Assembly (NCBI GenBank): GCA_022784065.1
Contig: JALFUO010000021.1
Span: forward strand, 1-35,051
Reading direction: 5' to 3'
Source of the DNA: Bacteroidales bacterium
GTDB taxonomy: Bacteria; Bacteroidota; Bacteroidia; Bacteroidales; Bacteroidaceae
DNA length: 35,051 bases
Shown: positions 535 to 6,906 of the stretch, piece after piece
Layout: every line of letters begins with the position of its first letter
How positions within the stretch are numbered: position 1 is the stretch's first letter
The notes under the pieces: model-generated
The model's input: the letters and a program-made list of their open reading frames with translations, nothing else
Database searches by the model: none
What the model was told of the DNA's origin: nothing
Made by a program: the position numbers and the translations under genes

Positions 535-572
535 ATCCTCCATAATCCAAGCAGCGATTATGGAGGATTTTT
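535..572 (+). terminator. Orphan hairpin resembling an intrinsic terminator
   Basis: A perfect 13-bp stem (535-547 with 556-568, ATCCTCCATAATC against its complement) closes an 8-nt loop and runs into five T on the plus strand. It has the form of a rho-independent terminator, yet no plus-strand gene precedes it in the window. It may end a small RNA or be a leftover from a replaced gene. Confidence 0.5.
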
Positions 573-664: not shown

Positions 665-683
665 TATGCCCACAACGGGCATA
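665..683. promoter_or_regulatory. Inverted repeat, candidate operator of the WYL operon
   Basis: TATGCCC (665-671) and GGGCATA (677-683) form a perfect 7-bp inverted repeat with a 5-nt spacer. It ends 10 nt before the -7 box of the operon. The half-site TATGCC occurs again at 724-729, followed by a shorter palindrome TGCC-GTAT-GGCA (726-737) that spans the start codon. Position and symmetry suit binding of a dimeric repressor. That the WYL protein binds it is inference. Confidence 0.45.
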
Positions 684-693
684 CATATTATAA

Positions 694-701
694 TAACTTT
701 G
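694..701 (+). promoter_or_regulatory. Bacteroidetes-type -7 box for the WYL operon
   Basis: TAACTTTG matches the Bacteroidetes primary sigma -7 consensus TAnnTTTG and lies 30 nt before the ATG at 732. I see no convincing TTTG -33 element at the usual distance. Confidence 0.5.
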
Positions 702-731: not shown

Positions 732-1646
732 ATGGCACTTAATCAAACAAATAAGCTTGCGTGGATTGTAGAGACCATCTACAAGGCCCGCAAGATAACA
801 TTTGAAGACCTCAACCGCAAATGGATAGACAATGCCGATCTAAGCGGCGGTGAGGAAATGCTGAAGCGGACATTCCACAAATGGAAGTGGAGTATCTTCG
901 ACACTTTTGGGCTTGTAATCGAATGTGAGAAGGCTGCTCCATATCATTATTATATAGAGAATGCAGACGATTTGAAGAGTGGAAGTATCGAGAACTGGCT
1001 GCTAAGTACTTATTCCGTCAGCAATTCTCTTATTGAGAGCAAATCTATAAAGGATAGGATTATACTCGAAGATATACCAAGCGGGCGCGATTATCTTAAC
1101 CCCATCTTAGACGCGATGAAGAAGAACCGCTTCATCCATATCACCTATTACAACTATTGGCATGAGGATAACAGGGACCATTACCTGATGCCTTTGTGCG
1201 TTAAGCTGTTCCGTCAGCGTTGGTATATGGTGGGGCGGATATGGCCATCAGGGCTGGACATTCTTTTCAGCCTTGACAGAATACGAGATTTCCGTCTCTC
1301 GAATCATACCTTCGAGTATCCGAAAGACTTCTCGCCGCAGGAATACTTTGACGGTTGTTTCGGTATCATACCAGACAAGAAATGTAAGGTTGAAGATGTG
1401 CTCCTGAAAGTAAATGCAGGACAAGCCAACTTTATGCGAGACCTGCCCATGATGGAGAACCAACAGGAAATTGAGCGCAATGAAGAATATAGCATCTTCA
1501 AAATACACGTCCGTCCAACCTTCGACTTCCAACAGGAACTGCTCTGGCATCGCGAAGAACTCGAAGTGCTCGAACCCCTCTGGCTTCGCAAGGAAATAGC
1601 AGGAGTGGTTAAAAGAATTTGGAACAAATACAAGGAAGACAAATGA
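732..1646 (+). CDS. WYL-domain transcriptional regulator with N-terminal winged helix
   Basis: The product is 304 aa. Residues 1 to about 75 look like a winged helix-turn-helix (KLAWIVETIYKARKITFEDL then a second helix). Residues about 125-190 are a WYL domain, with W164-Y165-M166 in place of W-Y-L and an LDRI motif at 181-184. Residues about 210-300 fit the WCX-type C-terminal extension. WYL proteins of this layout (BrxR, CapW) are known to control phage-defence operons and are thought to sense a ligand through the WYL pocket. Here it is the first gene of a four-gene operon, and its stop overlaps the next start (ATGA). It probably autoregulates through the palindrome at 665-683; that is inference. 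The domain call is secure, the signal sensed is unknown. Confidence 0.88.
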   Translation: MALNQTNKLAWIVETIYKARKITFEDLNRKWIDNADLSGGEEMLKRTFHKWKWSIFDTFGLVIECEKAAPYHYYIENADDLKSGSIENWLLSTYSVSNSLIESKSIKDRIILEDIPSGRDYLNPILDAMKKNRFIHITYYNYWHEDNRDHYLMPLCVKLFRQRWYMVGRIWPSGLDILFSLDRIRDFRLSNHTFEYPKDFSPQEYFDGCFGIIPDKKCKVEDVLLKVNAGQANFMRDLPMMENQQEIERNEEYSIFKIHVRPTFDFQQELLWHREELEVLEPLWLRKEIAGVVKRIWNKYKEDK

Positions 1647-2131
1647 AAGACTTTGCAGCAATAGACTTTGAGACAGCCAACAACGAGCGTAGTTCTGTAT
1701 GTAGCGTCGGTGTTGTCATCTATCGTGGCGGCATGAAAGTTGATGAGTTCTATTCACTCATCAAACCTGAACCTGAATACTACAATTATTGGTGCACTCA
1801 GGTACACGGGCTTTCTTCTGAAGACACAGAAGATGCTCCGATATTTCCCGATGTATGGAAGCAGATAGAGCCTAAGATAGCCGGGCTTCCTCTTATTGCC
1901 CATAACAAAGCATTCGACGAAAGTTGCTTGAAGGCGGTTTTCCGTGTTTATCAGATGGATTACCCTGATTACGAGTTCCACTGCACATGTATTGCTTCTC
2001 GCAAGGTTTGGCCAGAAGGGCCCCATAACCTCGACATCATAGCCGCACGTTGCGGATATATCTTGGAGAACCATCATCACGCTTTGGCAGATGCAGAAGC
2101 ATGTGCTGCCATTGCCTTACAGATATTATAA
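1643..2131 (+). CDS. DEDDh-type 3'-5' exonuclease
   Basis: I choose the ATG at 1643 (162 aa) rather than an upstream in-frame ATG at 1619. It gives a 4-nt ATGA overlap with the WYL gene, has a purine-rich AAGGAAG just before it, and starts directly at the family's first motif. DnaQ-fold motifs are visible: D8-F-E10, an H-N-x-A-F-D block ending at D92, and H145-x4-D150, so all DEDDh catalytic residues are present. Family members remove nucleotides from 3' ends of DNA or RNA using two metal ions. This one stands alone with no polymerase or helicase domain. Coupling to the WYL and DUF262 genes suggests an auxiliary nuclease of a defence operon; the substrate cannot be read from sequence. WYL plus exonuclease pairs may also travel without the DUF262 genes. 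Confidence 0.9.
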   Translation: MKDFAAIDFETANNERSSVCSVGVVIYRGGMKVDEFYSLIKPEPEYYNYWCTQVHGLSSEDTEDAPIFPDVWKQIEPKIAGLPLIAHNKAFDESCLKAVFRVYQMDYPDYEFHCTCIASRKVWPEGPHNLDIIAARCGYILENHHHALADAEACAAIALQIL

Positions 2132-2139
2132 AATAAGAA

Positions 2140-3957
2140 ATGATAGCCTATACAGCGCTATCTAAACTGATGATTATTATGAGAATAAAGACGTGGGTAA
2201 ATGATACTGTTCGTGAGTTTGCCAGCAAGACGTGGCCACAAAAAACAGTCAGATGTAACTACAATGTTAACTCGTCAAGAATGAGAGACGAAAACCGCTG
2301 GATAAAAATTTCTTCCCCTATTGATGATGATTATATTCATTACGAGATAACACACGAGCATATAGAACTACACTTTGAATACTCCAATTCAAAAGATAAG
2401 GGCATAACCGCCAATGCAGAGTTAGTGGATTATCTTGAGAAACAAACCGAAACGTCAAACCAATATGTATGGACGGATTTCCTTGGCGGAGATTCTGTCA
2501 GGTGCGTTTATATTGAAAAGATCCATGAATGGGATATGCTTGACAAACTCTATGATGTTGTTACTTACTTTGACAAACTGATTTCTGATTATCTCACAAA
2601 TAATCAAATGGCAATCAGCACGTCAAAGATAATCGTAGATAATTCTATCAAGGCTCCGAACTATTCTGTTGAACTGACAACATATCCACTTGAAGAAGTA
2701 TTCAAAAGAAATCTTTCCATTCCTGATTATCAACGTGTTTATTGCTGGGAAGAGAAAAATGTCAAGTGCCTTCTTGATGACTTATTACTTCATTCTGAGC
2801 AACAAAAAACGTCTGATTCTCCTTATCGTTTAGGTACAATAATTTTGCATTATCACGATAATACGTATGATATTATTGATGGTCAGCAAAGACTTGTCAC
2901 TTTATCACTCATTCTTGCCGAACTCGGAATTGAAACATGCCTTTTGGAACAAAAGTTTGATTCCAGTGTAGCAATAGACTATATTGGATACAACAAATAC
3001 CTTGTAGAAAATTTTGTAAGAAAGTATGTTTCTGAAAGAAAGAACTTTCTTACTAACCTACTTCATAACATAGAGCTAAGCGTTCTAATCCTGAATAACT
3101 CATCATTGGATTTAGCATACACCTTTTTCTCCAATGAAAACTCAAGAGGGGTATCGCTGACAGATTACGACCTGCTAAAAGCACATCATCTTAGGTTTAT
3201 TCCTGAAACGTTTGAACAACAATCACGAAAAGCAGCCGAGACCTGGAATCAGATGATAAAGGAAGGTAAGAGTAAAGTTTCTGAGTACGAGCCCATCCCT
3301 GACTATGAGAGAACATTAGACACTTATCTATATAATCTCCGTCAGTGGATGAAAATGGAGTATCATGATACTAAGGATAACGACCGTCATATAAAGAACG
3401 AGTATGAGGCGGCCCCTATAATGCAAGAAGTCCCACCTTTTGGGGAACAATTCTTTTTTAACGAACCTATCCAAGGCGGAACGCATTTCTTCTCTTTTGT
3501 TGAAATTCATCTCGCAAAATATCGTTCTTTCACAAAAACAGCTGTCTACCATAGCATCCATAATAGACTCACCGGCAAAGGGAGCATACAATGGTATAGG
3601 AACACCATCGAAACTTTGCTGTTCGGATATTATGAGAAATTCGGAGAACACTGTTTTGCCGATGCTGCAATTTTAATATCAAGAGTATTATTACAAAACA
3701 GATATAATACTTCAAGAGCCCAGAAAGGCTCGGTATATAAATATGTATCTGATTTGGGTATAATACTAATGATTAATCAAGCGACATCACCAACATTTTT
3801 TCTTGCAGAGATATATAACATAATACGTGACTACCCAATTAAATATCTTCAAGAGATGCTTCCGATACAGCGATCTATGAGAAGGACAATCATTGATATT
3901 AAAAACGAACTCGCTGGTAATATATATGTTGAATCAATTAGAAATCTGAAATTATGA
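2140..3957 (+). CDS. DUF262 (GmrS-like NTPase) protein with extra N-terminal domain, no HNH
   Basis: The product is 605 aa from the ATG at 2140. In-frame ATGs at 2170 and 2179 are possible alternatives, since the first ten codons add no recognisable motif. Residues about 15-160 form an extra domain I do not recognise. DUF262 follows, with I194-PDYQR, then DGQQR at 247-251 (the ParB/Srx-like nucleotide-binding motif of GmrS) and SRGxxLxxxDLLK at about 335-347. The C-terminal third shows no DUF1524 H-N-H signature, unlike its neighbour. In GmrSD and SspE enzymes DUF262 binds and hydrolyses nucleotide and governs a nuclease half. Here it probably works as a partner or sensor for the next gene. 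It lies 8 nt after the exonuclease and overlaps the next start by 4 nt. Confidence 0.85.
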   Translation: MIAYTALSKLMIIMRIKTWVNDTVREFASKTWPQKTVRCNYNVNSSRMRDENRWIKISSPIDDDYIHYEITHEHIELHFEYSNSKDKGITANAELVDYLEKQTETSNQYVWTDFLGGDSVRCVYIEKIHEWDMLDKLYDVVTYFDKLISDYLTNNQMAISTSKIIVDNSIKAPNYSVELTTYPLEEVFKRNLSIPDYQRVYCWEEKNVKCLLDDLLLHSEQQKTSDSPYRLGTIILHYHDNTYDIIDGQQRLVTLSLILAELGIETCLLEQKFDSSVAIDYIGYNKYLVENFVRKYVSERKNFLTNLLHNIELSVLILNNSSLDLAYTFFSNENSRGVSLTDYDLLKAHHLRFIPETFEQQSRKAAETWNQMIKEGKSKVSEYEPIPDYERTLDTYLYNLRQWMKMEYHDTKDNDRHIKNEYEAAPIMQEVPPFGEQFFFNEPIQGGTHFFSFVEIHLAKYRSFTKTAVYHSIHNRLTGKGSIQWYRNTIETLLFGYYEKFGEHCFADAAILISRVLLQNRYNTSRAQKGSVYKYVSDLGIILMINQATSPTFFLAEIYNIIRDYPIKYLQEMLPIQRSMRRTIIDIKNELAGNIYVESIRNLKL

Positions 3958-5840
3958 AATATACTCCTTGTACAATTAATGATGCAGAATATTCAATACC
4001 TCTGTATCAAAGACTTTTTGAGTGGGGATCAGAAAATGTTGCCCAGTTATTAGATGACTTACAAAGTGCGTTTGAAAAGTACATTCATATATCAAGCTCA
4101 ACAATTTCAGAAATCGACCCAACCGAAGGGGATTACTATATAGGAATGCTTACATCTACTGTTGCCGACAAATCAGGTGAGAAATTATATCTTGTTGATG
4201 GTCAGCAGCGCTTTACTGTTATGACCTTAATCGGCTGTGTTATGCAATCTAACGCAAGAGATTCTTGGCGGAAATTCCTTTTGTACAGAGAGAAACCGCG
4301 TTTGTCTTTCATTTCCAGGAAATCAGACGAGCTGTACTTAATCAAATTGATAAACCAAGAGTTTGACTATGAGGGAGAATTGGTGAACTATAAAATGAAA
4401 GAAGCCATTAAGACCGTCAGGGATCATATGGACAAATTTCAAGGCGACAAGGAAGCATTTGCCAACTACATATATAATCATCTTTCATTTTTTATCTCTG
4501 AACTGCCAGAAAAATATGGAGTGCAGGAGCTCAACAAATACTTTGAACGAATGAACAGCTCTGGCAAAGATTTGGAGCATCATGAGATTCTAAAGGTTAA
4601 GATACTCAGCAAACTTGATGGAAATGTTTCTCTTTACATGCAGTTATGGAATAAGATAGCTGATGTGGATACAATATTGCTGCGCAAGAAAGACTATCAA
4701 CAAGAATCGGAAGCCGAATACAATTCCAGGAAGAATAAGGTTCTCATGTCTTCTTTAGCTGATATTGAAGCTTCCCCCGAATTGATTAACAACTTAAAAG
4801 ATGAGGACAACAAAGATGCCCTTCCTATAAAAAATATAGGTATCAGAAATAAGAAACCCCAAGATTTTAGCAACAACCATTTTAACGGTTCCAAAAGCGT
4901 TCTTCGCTTTCCGCAACTGCTATTACTAACACTTTTCCTCTATCTAAAAAACAAGAAAGGCGATGAGTTTTCGCCAAAACTTGAGGATTTCTTTAATCAG
5001 AACAAATTACTTGAAACGTTTCAAAAGCATCTACCTTTTGAGGGCGTTAGTGTAAACAAGGAATGCTTAAAAGAGTTTTTTGAGCATCTTCTTCATTATC
5101 GAGTTGCAATGGACGTATGTTTCGTCAGATCTTTGGAATATGGTTATTCATTAGATATGAATTTACCTGAGGATAATAAGGATTTAAGAGAATTGATGAT
5201 GTTTGAATCATTCCTATATGTGTCATCTTCAAACCTAACATATTACAGATGGTTTGGGTGGCTAATGGCATACGTTATGAATAACAAAAGAATACCTAAC
5301 GCAAAAGAGTTATTCTTGGAGTTGAAAAAGCAAACAGATTCATTGAATAAGCTTCCTAAATACAGTAAATTACACTTTGGAAAAGAAATTAAATACTGGT
5401 TTTGGAGACTTGATTTCTATATATGGCAGCACCGATATGAACTTTTCAAATCAGAAGAAGATGCCTCATATCTGGATATTGCAGAAAACTACGTATTCAT
5501 TAGGAATCGTAGCATTGAGCACATAGCTCCTCAGCATCCAAAGACAGAATCAAAATTGCAGTGGTCAGAAAGTGAAGATGATAACGCGCTGCTCAATAGT
5601 TTTGGTAATCTTGTTATGATTTCTCAAAGCTTGAACTCTGCATTAAGCAATTCCTCTTATGAGGAAAAGAAAGCTCATGTTGAATCCTATTTCAATAGTG
5701 TCAACGGAACGATAGAAAGTCTTAAACTCCTTATGGTATATAAAGACTTCTCAACATGTTGGTCAAAAGATAATATCCCATTACACGGTGAAAAGATGTA
5801 TTCATTCTTGAAAAATGACATAACACCTGACGTAGAATAG
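3954..5840 (+). CDS. DUF262 + DUF1524 (GmrSD/SspE-like) restriction nuclease
   Basis: The product is 628 aa and its start overlaps the previous stop (ATGA). The N-terminal DUF262 has I15-PLYQR, an IGMLTS segment and DGQQR at 82-86, followed by MNSSGKDLxxxxxLK. The C-terminal DUF1524 HNH nuclease is clear: S520-IEHIAPQ with H523, then FGNLVMI (550-556), L-N-S and a downstream KK. This matches the fused GmrSD layout of type IV modification-dependent restriction enzymes, and SspE of phosphorothioate systems. Those enzymes cleave DNA under control of DUF262 NTP hydrolysis. No modification genes (dnd, ssp, methylase) are adjacent, so a stand-alone sensor of modified phage DNA fits best; the target is inference. 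AT-rich composition suggests transfer. Confidence 0.88.
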   Translation: MKYTPCTINDAEYSIPLYQRLFEWGSENVAQLLDDLQSAFEKYIHISSSTISEIDPTEGDYYIGMLTSTVADKSGEKLYLVDGQQRFTVMTLIGCVMQSNARDSWRKFLLYREKPRLSFISRKSDELYLIKLINQEFDYEGELVNYKMKEAIKTVRDHMDKFQGDKEAFANYIYNHLSFFISELPEKYGVQELNKYFERMNSSGKDLEHHEILKVKILSKLDGNVSLYMQLWNKIADVDTILLRKKDYQQESEAEYNSRKNKVLMSSLADIEASPELINNLKDEDNKDALPIKNIGIRNKKPQDFSNNHFNGSKSVLRFPQLLLLTLFLYLKNKKGDEFSPKLEDFFNQNKLLETFQKHLPFEGVSVNKECLKEFFEHLLHYRVAMDVCFVRSLEYGYSLDMNLPEDNKDLRELMMFESFLYVSSSNLTYYRWFGWLMAYVMNNKRIPNAKELFLELKKQTDSLNKLPKYSKLHFGKEIKYWFWRLDFYIWQHRYELFKSEEDASYLDIAENYVFIRNRSIEHIAPQHPKTESKLQWSESEDDNALLNSFGNLVMISQSLNSALSNSSYEEKKAHVESYFNSVNGTIESLKLLMVYKDFSTCWSKDNIPLHGEKMYSFLKNDITPDVE

Positions 5841-6015: not shown

Positions 6016-6246
6016 ATGGCACTCTGGAAAATTTCAGTAAAGACGAGCGGAACGGTTAATGGCGTCCGTCTCGAAAAGGGCATGTCGGTAGAATGTGTCA
6101 CTACTTCTACAAGTAATCCACTGCAGACTAATCTCACTAAGAACAAACCAATGATTGGGCAACTGTTCATGAACAAGTATGGTGTTGACCTCGAAAAGGC
6201 AGGATTGATTAGTATGGGCCGTCTTTCTTGCGAAAAGATTGGATAA
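6016..6246 (+). CDS. Small protein, probably DUF6140 family
   Basis: The product is 76 aa from the ATG at 6016. An in-frame ATG at 5992 would add eight residues but lies only 20 nt from the -7 box and gives a poor N-terminus. The protein starts MALWKISVKTSGTVNG, continues with RLEKGMSVECVT, has a middle NPLQTN and a C-terminal KYGVDLEKAGLISMGRL. I recognise the pattern as that of short Bacteroidetes proteins labelled DUF6140, which have no known function. It has no signal peptide, membrane segment or catalytic motif. It has its own promoter and a strong terminator, so it is a one-gene unit behind the DUF262 operon. A role linked to that operon is only a guess from position. Confidence 0.75.
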   Translation: MALWKISVKTSGTVNGVRLEKGMSVECVTTSTSNPLQTNLTKNKPMIGQLFMNKYGVDLEKAGLISMGRLSCEKIG

Positions 6247-6310: not shown

Positions 6311-6750
6311 ACCTTTCAGTCTCTTTCTTGTCCTTGATTATCTGCCTAACATTTGTTTAGCCTTCCTCGGCGTCGATACAATTTCCCTATACGTATTTTT
6401 TTACCCCGAAAAACCCTTCAACCATTCAGCCGCGCCCCAAACGCATTGTTTTTGAGCCGCTTGCCGCTGAATGGTTTGAGGCGCAAACCTTTCAGAACTA
6501 TTCATCTTTGGCTGCTTCGGCATAGCCCAAGCAAACTTGGCTTCCGCGCTCGCCTTGTACAAAGGTGAATGTATATGAAAGGTTTTATTTGCCGCGGCAC
6601 AGGCCGGCACAAGTCCGCAATTCTCTTAGCAACGCCCTATCATTATCACACGTGACAATCTGTGCGCACACGGCAGACAGATTTTATTTCCTCAGAGATA
6701 TTTTTTACTCTCAGCAAGATAATTTTCACTATCTGATAAGAAAAAGTCTA

Positions 6751-6906
6751 TTACAAAGTTTGTAATATATGTTACAAAGTTTCTAACACATGTTACAAAG
6801 TTTGTAATGCTTGTTACAAACTTTGTAACAAAAAATGTCTTATAGGGTAGTGAAAAATATCAAGGAGAAAGGAAAAATTTGCTCCGAGAAAGGAAAAATT
6901 TGCTCC
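6751..6906. repeat. 21-bp periodic palindrome array, copy 1
   Basis: Four copies of the 15-bp palindrome TTACAAAGTTTGTAA (one with one changed base, one with the centre inverted) start at 6751, 6772, 6793 and 6814, exactly 21 bp apart. After a 51-nt step come two direct copies of a purine-rich 21-mer beginning GAGAAAGGAAAAA (6865-6885 and 6886-6906). Copy 2 at 18115-18270 has the same length and register. The element lies about 200 nt before the PAP2 gene. Confidence 0.85.

Follow-up and report, generated by a model that had tools for sequence, protein, structure and literature searches.

A four-gene operon at 732–5840 on the forward strand of a 35,051-nucleotide stretch of a Bacteroidales bacterium (GenBank GCA_022784065.1, contig JALFUO010000021.1, positions 1 to 35,051; 'the window' hereafter) encodes a WYL regulator (P0001), a stand-alone DEDDh 3'-5' exonuclease (P0002) and two DUF262 proteins, here called A (P0003) and B (P0004) (table 1). 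On their sequence features we assign A and B to the TgvAB kind as a new member, and the pair very likely belongs to type IV (modification-dependent) restriction. By analogy with its relatives, it probably cuts chemically modified phage DNA. The arrangement with a WYL–exonuclease front end, and not the pair, looks new. Our preferred reading, to which we give a probability of roughly 55%, is an inducible type IV pair of the TgvAB kind under an autoregulated WYL switch, with the exonuclease clearing a nucleic-acid inducer.

Coordinates and overlaps are as placed by an earlier, sequence-only reading: genes 1 and 2, and genes 3 and 4, overlap at ATGA, and an 8-nt gap separates genes 2 and 3. Its domain calls for the four genes are likewise borne out by Pfam, the winged helix-turn-helix of gene 1 apart. 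The regulator matches WYL (7.7e-9) and WCX (9.4e-9), the domain combination of BrxR and CapW, which also carry an N-terminal winged helix-turn-helix; in the window's protein Pfam gives no helix-turn-helix match within residues 1–120, and NCBIfam gives no match. The PADLOC models that match it are WYL and, more weakly, Cas3c. The exonuclease matches RNase_T (1.9e-17), has all of the FET, AHNKAFD and HALADA motifs, and is also matched by DnaQ-type NCBIfam models, below their cut-offs, and by the PADLOC models PDC-S48 and CRISPR-associated DEDDh. A matches GmrSD_N (1.2e-27) and DUF7834 (2.5e-20), and B matches GmrSD_N (3.8e-26) and GmrSD_C (3.1e-16); PADLOC models matching A and B are mainly Orf5, HEC-06 and SspE.

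In an alignment of 38 B proteins including that of the window, from which the truncated or split L041–L044, L048, L058, L063 and L068 were left out, DGQQR and H523/N552/N561 are invariant. GmrSD_N was present in all 46 A proteins scanned (window included) and DUF7834 in 45 of them, a set that takes in A proteins from type I restriction–modification (R-M) operons. Neither DUF7834 nor the extra N-terminal domain of A figured in the sequence-only account. The latter has clear counterparts in no more than three of the other 45 A proteins, and its best structural match has a Z-score of 7.0, under the level to trust; A may begin at a later ATG, at codon 11 or 14, judging by where two relatives start. 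The DUF262 part of A finds its best structural matches in SspE and DndI, then BrxU. These and GmrSD are DUF262 proteins like A and B; GmrSD-type enzymes are described as single proteins and, unlike the window's, have no second DUF262 partner.

That second partner had been taken as grounds for an undescribed system. However, two-protein DUF262 pairs are published: TgvAB of V. cholerae VPI-2, reported as a two-gene system with one nuclease that sits in a type I R-M operon (PMC11411939), and GrwAB, reported as a two-gene pair with one DUF1524 nuclease (PMC12137116). The window resembles TgvAB in having two adjacent genes, both encoding DUF262 with QR, DGQQR and FxxxN, with DUF1524 H..N..N in the second protein only and the nuclease-less gene first (for TgvAB by the gene numbers VC1767 and VC1766). 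Relatives of the window's pair, too, are found in type I R-M operons: L049, L054 and L075 have the order HsdM, HsdS, A, B, HsdR, and the annotation of a Vibrio aerogenes plasmid gives R, M, S, A, B. Every TgvAB feature that could be tested was found, save direct comparison with TgvA, so that the class is set by features and homology to TgvA is indirect. Because the pair has these features and its relatives sit in TgvAB-type operons, we reject a wholly new defence system; the claim of a candidate undescribed operon is not supported for the DUF262 core, and only the front end looks new. The window differs from TgvAB in the WYL and exonuclease genes in front, in having no R-M genes in view and in the extra N-terminal domain of A. 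Like GrwAB it has two paired DUF262 genes, one of which encodes a DUF1524 nuclease, but GrwAB has the nuclease gene first, as by motif in L190, L192, L252 and L260, and the window has the reverse order. BREX systems carry PglZ, BrxC and methyltransferase genes, none of which was found by Pfam among the operon's four genes; the contig ends at position 1.

Relatives of the pair recur in several phyla, with A preceding B in all 45 pairs kept (L045, the window itself, L040, L094 and the second half of L063 were dropped). Most have neither a WYL gene nor an exonuclease within three genes upstream: WYL is found there in 6 of 48 pair loci, once on the opposite strand, and, the window's own copy aside, three of 47 loci (L038, L047 and L076) have the exonuclease there, excluding PolC-size matches in Streptococcus L055 and L057. 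We therefore reject the idea that exactly these four genes make up a fixed unit. In those two Streptococcus loci (L055 6061–10236, L057 6055–10203), a gap of 7 nt separates a WYL gene from the TgvAB-like pair behind it, and a stand-alone exonuclease was not seen. MoxR-type AAA and VWA-domain genes lie between a WYL gene and the TgvAB-like pair at L048 3814–6797. L250, on a Segatella copri plasmid, has a TgvAB-like pair locus and WYL genes, with A and one WYL gene apparently interrupted by insertion sequences. The window's own genome holds a third GmrSD_N (DUF262) match, at G000:C10:7788-8162.

WYL and stand-alone DEDDh exonuclease genes recur together as a two-gene unit, ordered as in the window. 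A search of 295 genomes with P0002 gave 51 matches at E ≤2e-50 besides the window, 50 of which make up our first sample (the 51st, in G019, is L038); a second sample comprises 26 matches in genomes outside that search. In 7/50 loci (L190, L191, L192, L197, L198, L204 and L234) the immediate upstream neighbour of the exonuclease is a P0001-type WYL gene on the same strand; in the second sample WYL is immediately upstream in three of the 26 (L278, L282 and L295), with WYL two or three genes upstream in L286 and L287 of the second sample. Immediately downstream on the same strand, WYL was found in none of the 76 loci. In a tree of 82 exonucleases, 13 rows have WYL immediately upstream; 12 of these fall in one 37-row part (support 86), and the state changes at least 10 times over the tree. 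Mantel tests show a correlation between WYL and exonuclease distances (r 0.70, n 18; 0.69, n 13; p 0.0002), a result that host phylogeny could also produce. Distant loci L253–L256, chosen for having both genes on one contig, have the order exonuclease then WYL, directly in L253–L255. The absence of the exonuclease from L240–L249 is by choice, since these were taken for a WYL gene and for not having been fetched already for the exonuclease. Viral contigs yielded one relative of P0001, three of P0002 and none of P0003; one of the three P0002 relatives, L128, possibly host DNA, carries DNA polymerase III alpha. Six plasmids matched the exonuclease, and among the four annotated, WYL and DUF262 genes adjoin it only on pE2-28. 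No description of a WYL–exonuclease cassette was found in the titles and abstract openings of the open-licence papers listed, and the nearest published case found is the capW/cap18 operon; PMC4012209 makes no mention of an exonuclease or DEDDh.

What stands behind the unit varies. The order WYL–exonuclease–DUF262–DUF262, proposed from the window alone, does recur: on plasmid pE2-28 of Prevotella sp. E2-28 (annotated as WYL, 3'-5' exonuclease, DUF262, DUF262), in G151 and, as a distant version, in G200. The pE2-28 WYL and exonuclease proteins are 55% and 77% identical to those of the window; its DUF262 proteins align over parts of DUF262 only, at 22–34%, and the pair there and in G151 is a different one, in GrwAB order. 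Besides pE2-28, GrwAB-order pairs follow the unit directly in L190 (WYL 50%, exonuclease 75% identical to the window) and L252, and four genes on in L192 (29% and 72%); L252 is a distant version, since the identities are 24% and 26%. The order in L190, L192, L252 and pE2-28 was called from motifs; Pfam makes no DUF1524 call in L190 or L192, and the L252 match is below cut-off. TgvAB-like pairs stand behind the unit in the window and, with extra genes between, in L076, and behind an exonuclease without WYL in L038 and L047 (the latter near a contig end). In L128 the genes behind are McrB-like AAA and McrC, one extra gene separating WYL and exonuclease, while L204 has a Schlafen AlbA_2 protein with the unit and L234 a PDDEXK_4 protein. 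The exonuclease accompanies a single GmrSD-type protein in L193 (near a contig start), L211 and L300. No DUF262 or McrBC gene was seen near the unit in L282 or L295, nor elsewhere in the second sample apart from L300. Because it is also found without a nearby defence gene, the WYL–exonuclease unit is not dedicated to this system, and the notion that the two genes are specific to the pair fails: both occur with other pairs and without any defence gene. A Tubulin/FtsZ-family gene lies between unit and DUF262 pair at L192 7087–8283, and Schlafen AlbA_2 proteins that also have a HATPase_c_4 domain are encoded beside WYL and exonuclease genes at L204 2878–4419 and L286 8217–9878.

WYL regulators upstream of defence genes are reported for BrxR and CapW (PMC9122601, PMC9122588), and by analogy it is likely that WYL autoregulates the window's operon. 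The candidate operator upstream of the WYL gene, an inverted repeat with a 5-bp spacer, has the form reported for BrxR binding sites (PMC9122601). The motif GCC[AC]-N5-[TG]GGC was found in 7 of the 41 distinct regions upstream of WYL genes, where random stretches taken from these loci would give 0.75, but is a lead only, because it was picked after inspection of some of the same regions. It lies 58–64 nt before the start in six regions and 111 in one, all seven loci also carry the exonuclease, and in the second sample it is present in one of seven WYL upstream regions (L287). After the palindrome, TAACTTTG at 694 is a candidate −7 box by the Bacteroidetes promoter consensus.

Judging from published relatives, A and B would act jointly, with their DUF262 domains using nucleoside triphosphate (NTP) to sense modified or otherwise foreign DNA, which B would cut with its DUF1524 (His-Me finger) domain. 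In those relatives DUF262 is reported to sense modified DNA and use NTP, DUF1524 to cut, and both partners to be needed (PMC11411939, PMC12137116); TgvAB acts on phages with hypermodified cytosine and needs both its proteins (PMC11411939). A likely role in phage defence, suggested earlier, is supported. WYL would repress the operon via the promoter palindrome, much as CapW represses its own operon, for which opening by ligand is proposed (PMC9122588). Release of WYL could then come from a nucleic-acid ligand that arises in infection or on DNA damage, and the co-translated DEDDh exonuclease could destroy that ligand (single-stranded DNA (ssDNA) or oligonucleotide 3' ends), which would set a threshold and turn the response off. 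The WYL–exonuclease gene pair may in this way serve as on/off control of the restriction pair.

The eraser role of the exonuclease, to which we give less than even odds, is the more tentative part of this scheme, and two precedents bear on it. PafBC is an ssDNA-activated WYL protein, and transcription in vitro dropped sharply once exonuclease I (ExoI) was added, although PafBC, unlike the window's regulator, is a heterodimeric activator of DNA-damage genes (PMC11804915). The upec-117 CBASS operon has capW and, like the window, a predicted 3'-5' exonuclease gene, cap18, but three genes separate the two; catalytic-dead cap18 left phage protection unaffected (PMC9122588). Taken together, the CapW, PafBC and cap18 precedents favour a control over an effector role for the exonuclease. 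Exonuclease I belongs to the DEDD class. A broader version, in which WYL and exonuclease form a portable sense-and-erase cassette (ssDNA or oligonucleotides releasing WYL, the exonuclease destroying them) placed before unrelated type IV systems (TgvAB-like, GrwAB-like and McrBC) and other genes, is possible but on the unlikely side.

Several observations weigh against the preferred reading. Most exonuclease loci show no adjacent WYL and no type IV gene, few pair loci have the exonuclease upstream (the 3/47 above), and no defence gene was seen with the unit in L191 (recA, helicase), L197 or L198 (both dnaE; the L198 neighbours were judged by size and layout only). The operator motif, its choice after the fact apart, is absent from 34 of the 41 WYL upstream regions, at least seven of them in exonuclease-bearing loci, and was not found on pE2-28. 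The indirect homology to TgvA counts here too, and in the published assay protection did not depend on induction through CapW (PMC9122588).

The exonuclease could instead be part of the effector, degrading phage DNA from ends or from nicks made by B, which we consider rather unlikely. It lies directly upstream (gap ≤62 nt) of a GmrSD-family gene in three of the 50 loci of the first sample (L190, L193 and L211) and one of the 26 of the second (L300), against about 0.03 such adjacencies expected if each genome has 1.13 GmrSD_N genes (from 112 matches across 99 genomes) among an assumed 2,900 genes, and in L211 and L300 no P0001-type WYL gene was seen upstream; L193 is near a contig start. With 3/50 and 1/26 loci only, the case for a general type IV enrichment beside the exonuclease is weak. 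Most relatives of the pair are without an exonuclease, however, the published TgvAB and GrwAB systems are described as having two genes (PMC11411939, PMC12137116), and the cap18 mutant retains protection in CBASS (PMC9122588).

Less probable still is that WYL and exonuclease are an independent DNA-damage or housekeeping operon, behind which the restriction pair landed and is read through. The units beside recA/helicase or dnaE fit such an origin, as do the different GC contents of the operon halves (below) and the five second-sample exonucleases with WYL near and no type IV gene behind (L278 is cut by the contig end). Set against this, the same four-gene order occurs on pE2-28 and in G151, in both with a pair matching the window's only over DUF262, and distantly in G200, and four of the five exonucleases nearest to the window's in the tree adjoin type IV genes, partly from the choice of loci. 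That the DUF262 pair senses something other than DNA modification is improbable: the restricted N-terminal domain of A and a DUF7834 without known function in Pfam would allow it, but the studied DUF262–DUF1524 systems (GmrSD, BrxU, SspE, TgvAB and GrwAB) are reported to respond to DNA modification (PMC11411939, PMC12137116).

The AT-rich composition noted earlier against a GC-rich core holds: GC is 0.444 and 0.456 for the WYL and exonuclease genes and 0.361 and 0.356 for the A and B genes, compared with 0.561 for 7001–35051. On these values the operon is unlike the core, and a composition step lies inside it, between the WYL–exonuclease half and the DUF262 pair. The window begins at a contig end, so nothing is visible upstream of position 1. 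Named close relatives belong to Prevotella, Muribaculaceae and Bacteroidaceae, which points to Bacteroidales as the order. Downstream of the operon, a DUF6140 protein gene (6016–6246) is followed, by eye, by a terminator-like inverted repeat, and a short palindromic unit of TTACAAAGTTTGTAA type, also found by eye, is present in several near copies at approximately 6750–6830 in an AT-rich stretch preceding the GC-rich core.

Table 1. Features of the operon and its upstream region, in window coordinates.
Feature	Position	Strand	Basis and remarks
Inverted repeat, terminator-like, upstream of operon	535..568		Sequence; perfect 13-bp arms
Candidate WYL operator TATGCCC-ACAAC-GGGCATA	665..683		Sequence, BrxR-site likeness; 7-bp arms, 5-bp spacer
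Candidate −7 box TAACTTTG	694..701	+	Sequence; after palindrome 665–683
WYL-WCX regulator	732..1646	+	Pfam; 304 aa
Stand-alone DEDDh 3'-5' exonuclease	1643..2131	+	Pfam, motifs; 162 aa from ATG 1643
A protein (TgvA-like), DUF262-DUF7834	2140..3957	+	Pfam; 605 aa; no nuclease domain found
Extra N-terminal domain of A	2140..2610	+	~150 aa; predicted alpha/beta; weak type III secretion chaperone/YbjN fold match
DUF262 (GmrSD_N) domain of A	2695..3192	+	Pfam
DUF7834 domain of A	3226..3828	+	Pfam
B protein (TgvB-like), DUF262-DUF1524	3954..5840	+	Pfam; 628 aa
DUF262 (GmrSD_N) domain of B	3984..4604	+	Pfam
DUF1524 (GmrSD_C) nuclease domain of B	5433..5687	+	Pfam, alignment; H523/N552/N561

For WYL repressors linked to defence, the CapW paper (PMC9122588) describes the opening ligand as unknown, and the company of an exonuclease suggests that for such a regulator it is a nucleic acid. 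If the exonuclease does remove the inducer, the operon should stay switched on in a catalytic mutant. The operon would also place TgvAB-like restriction in a transcriptionally controlled form.

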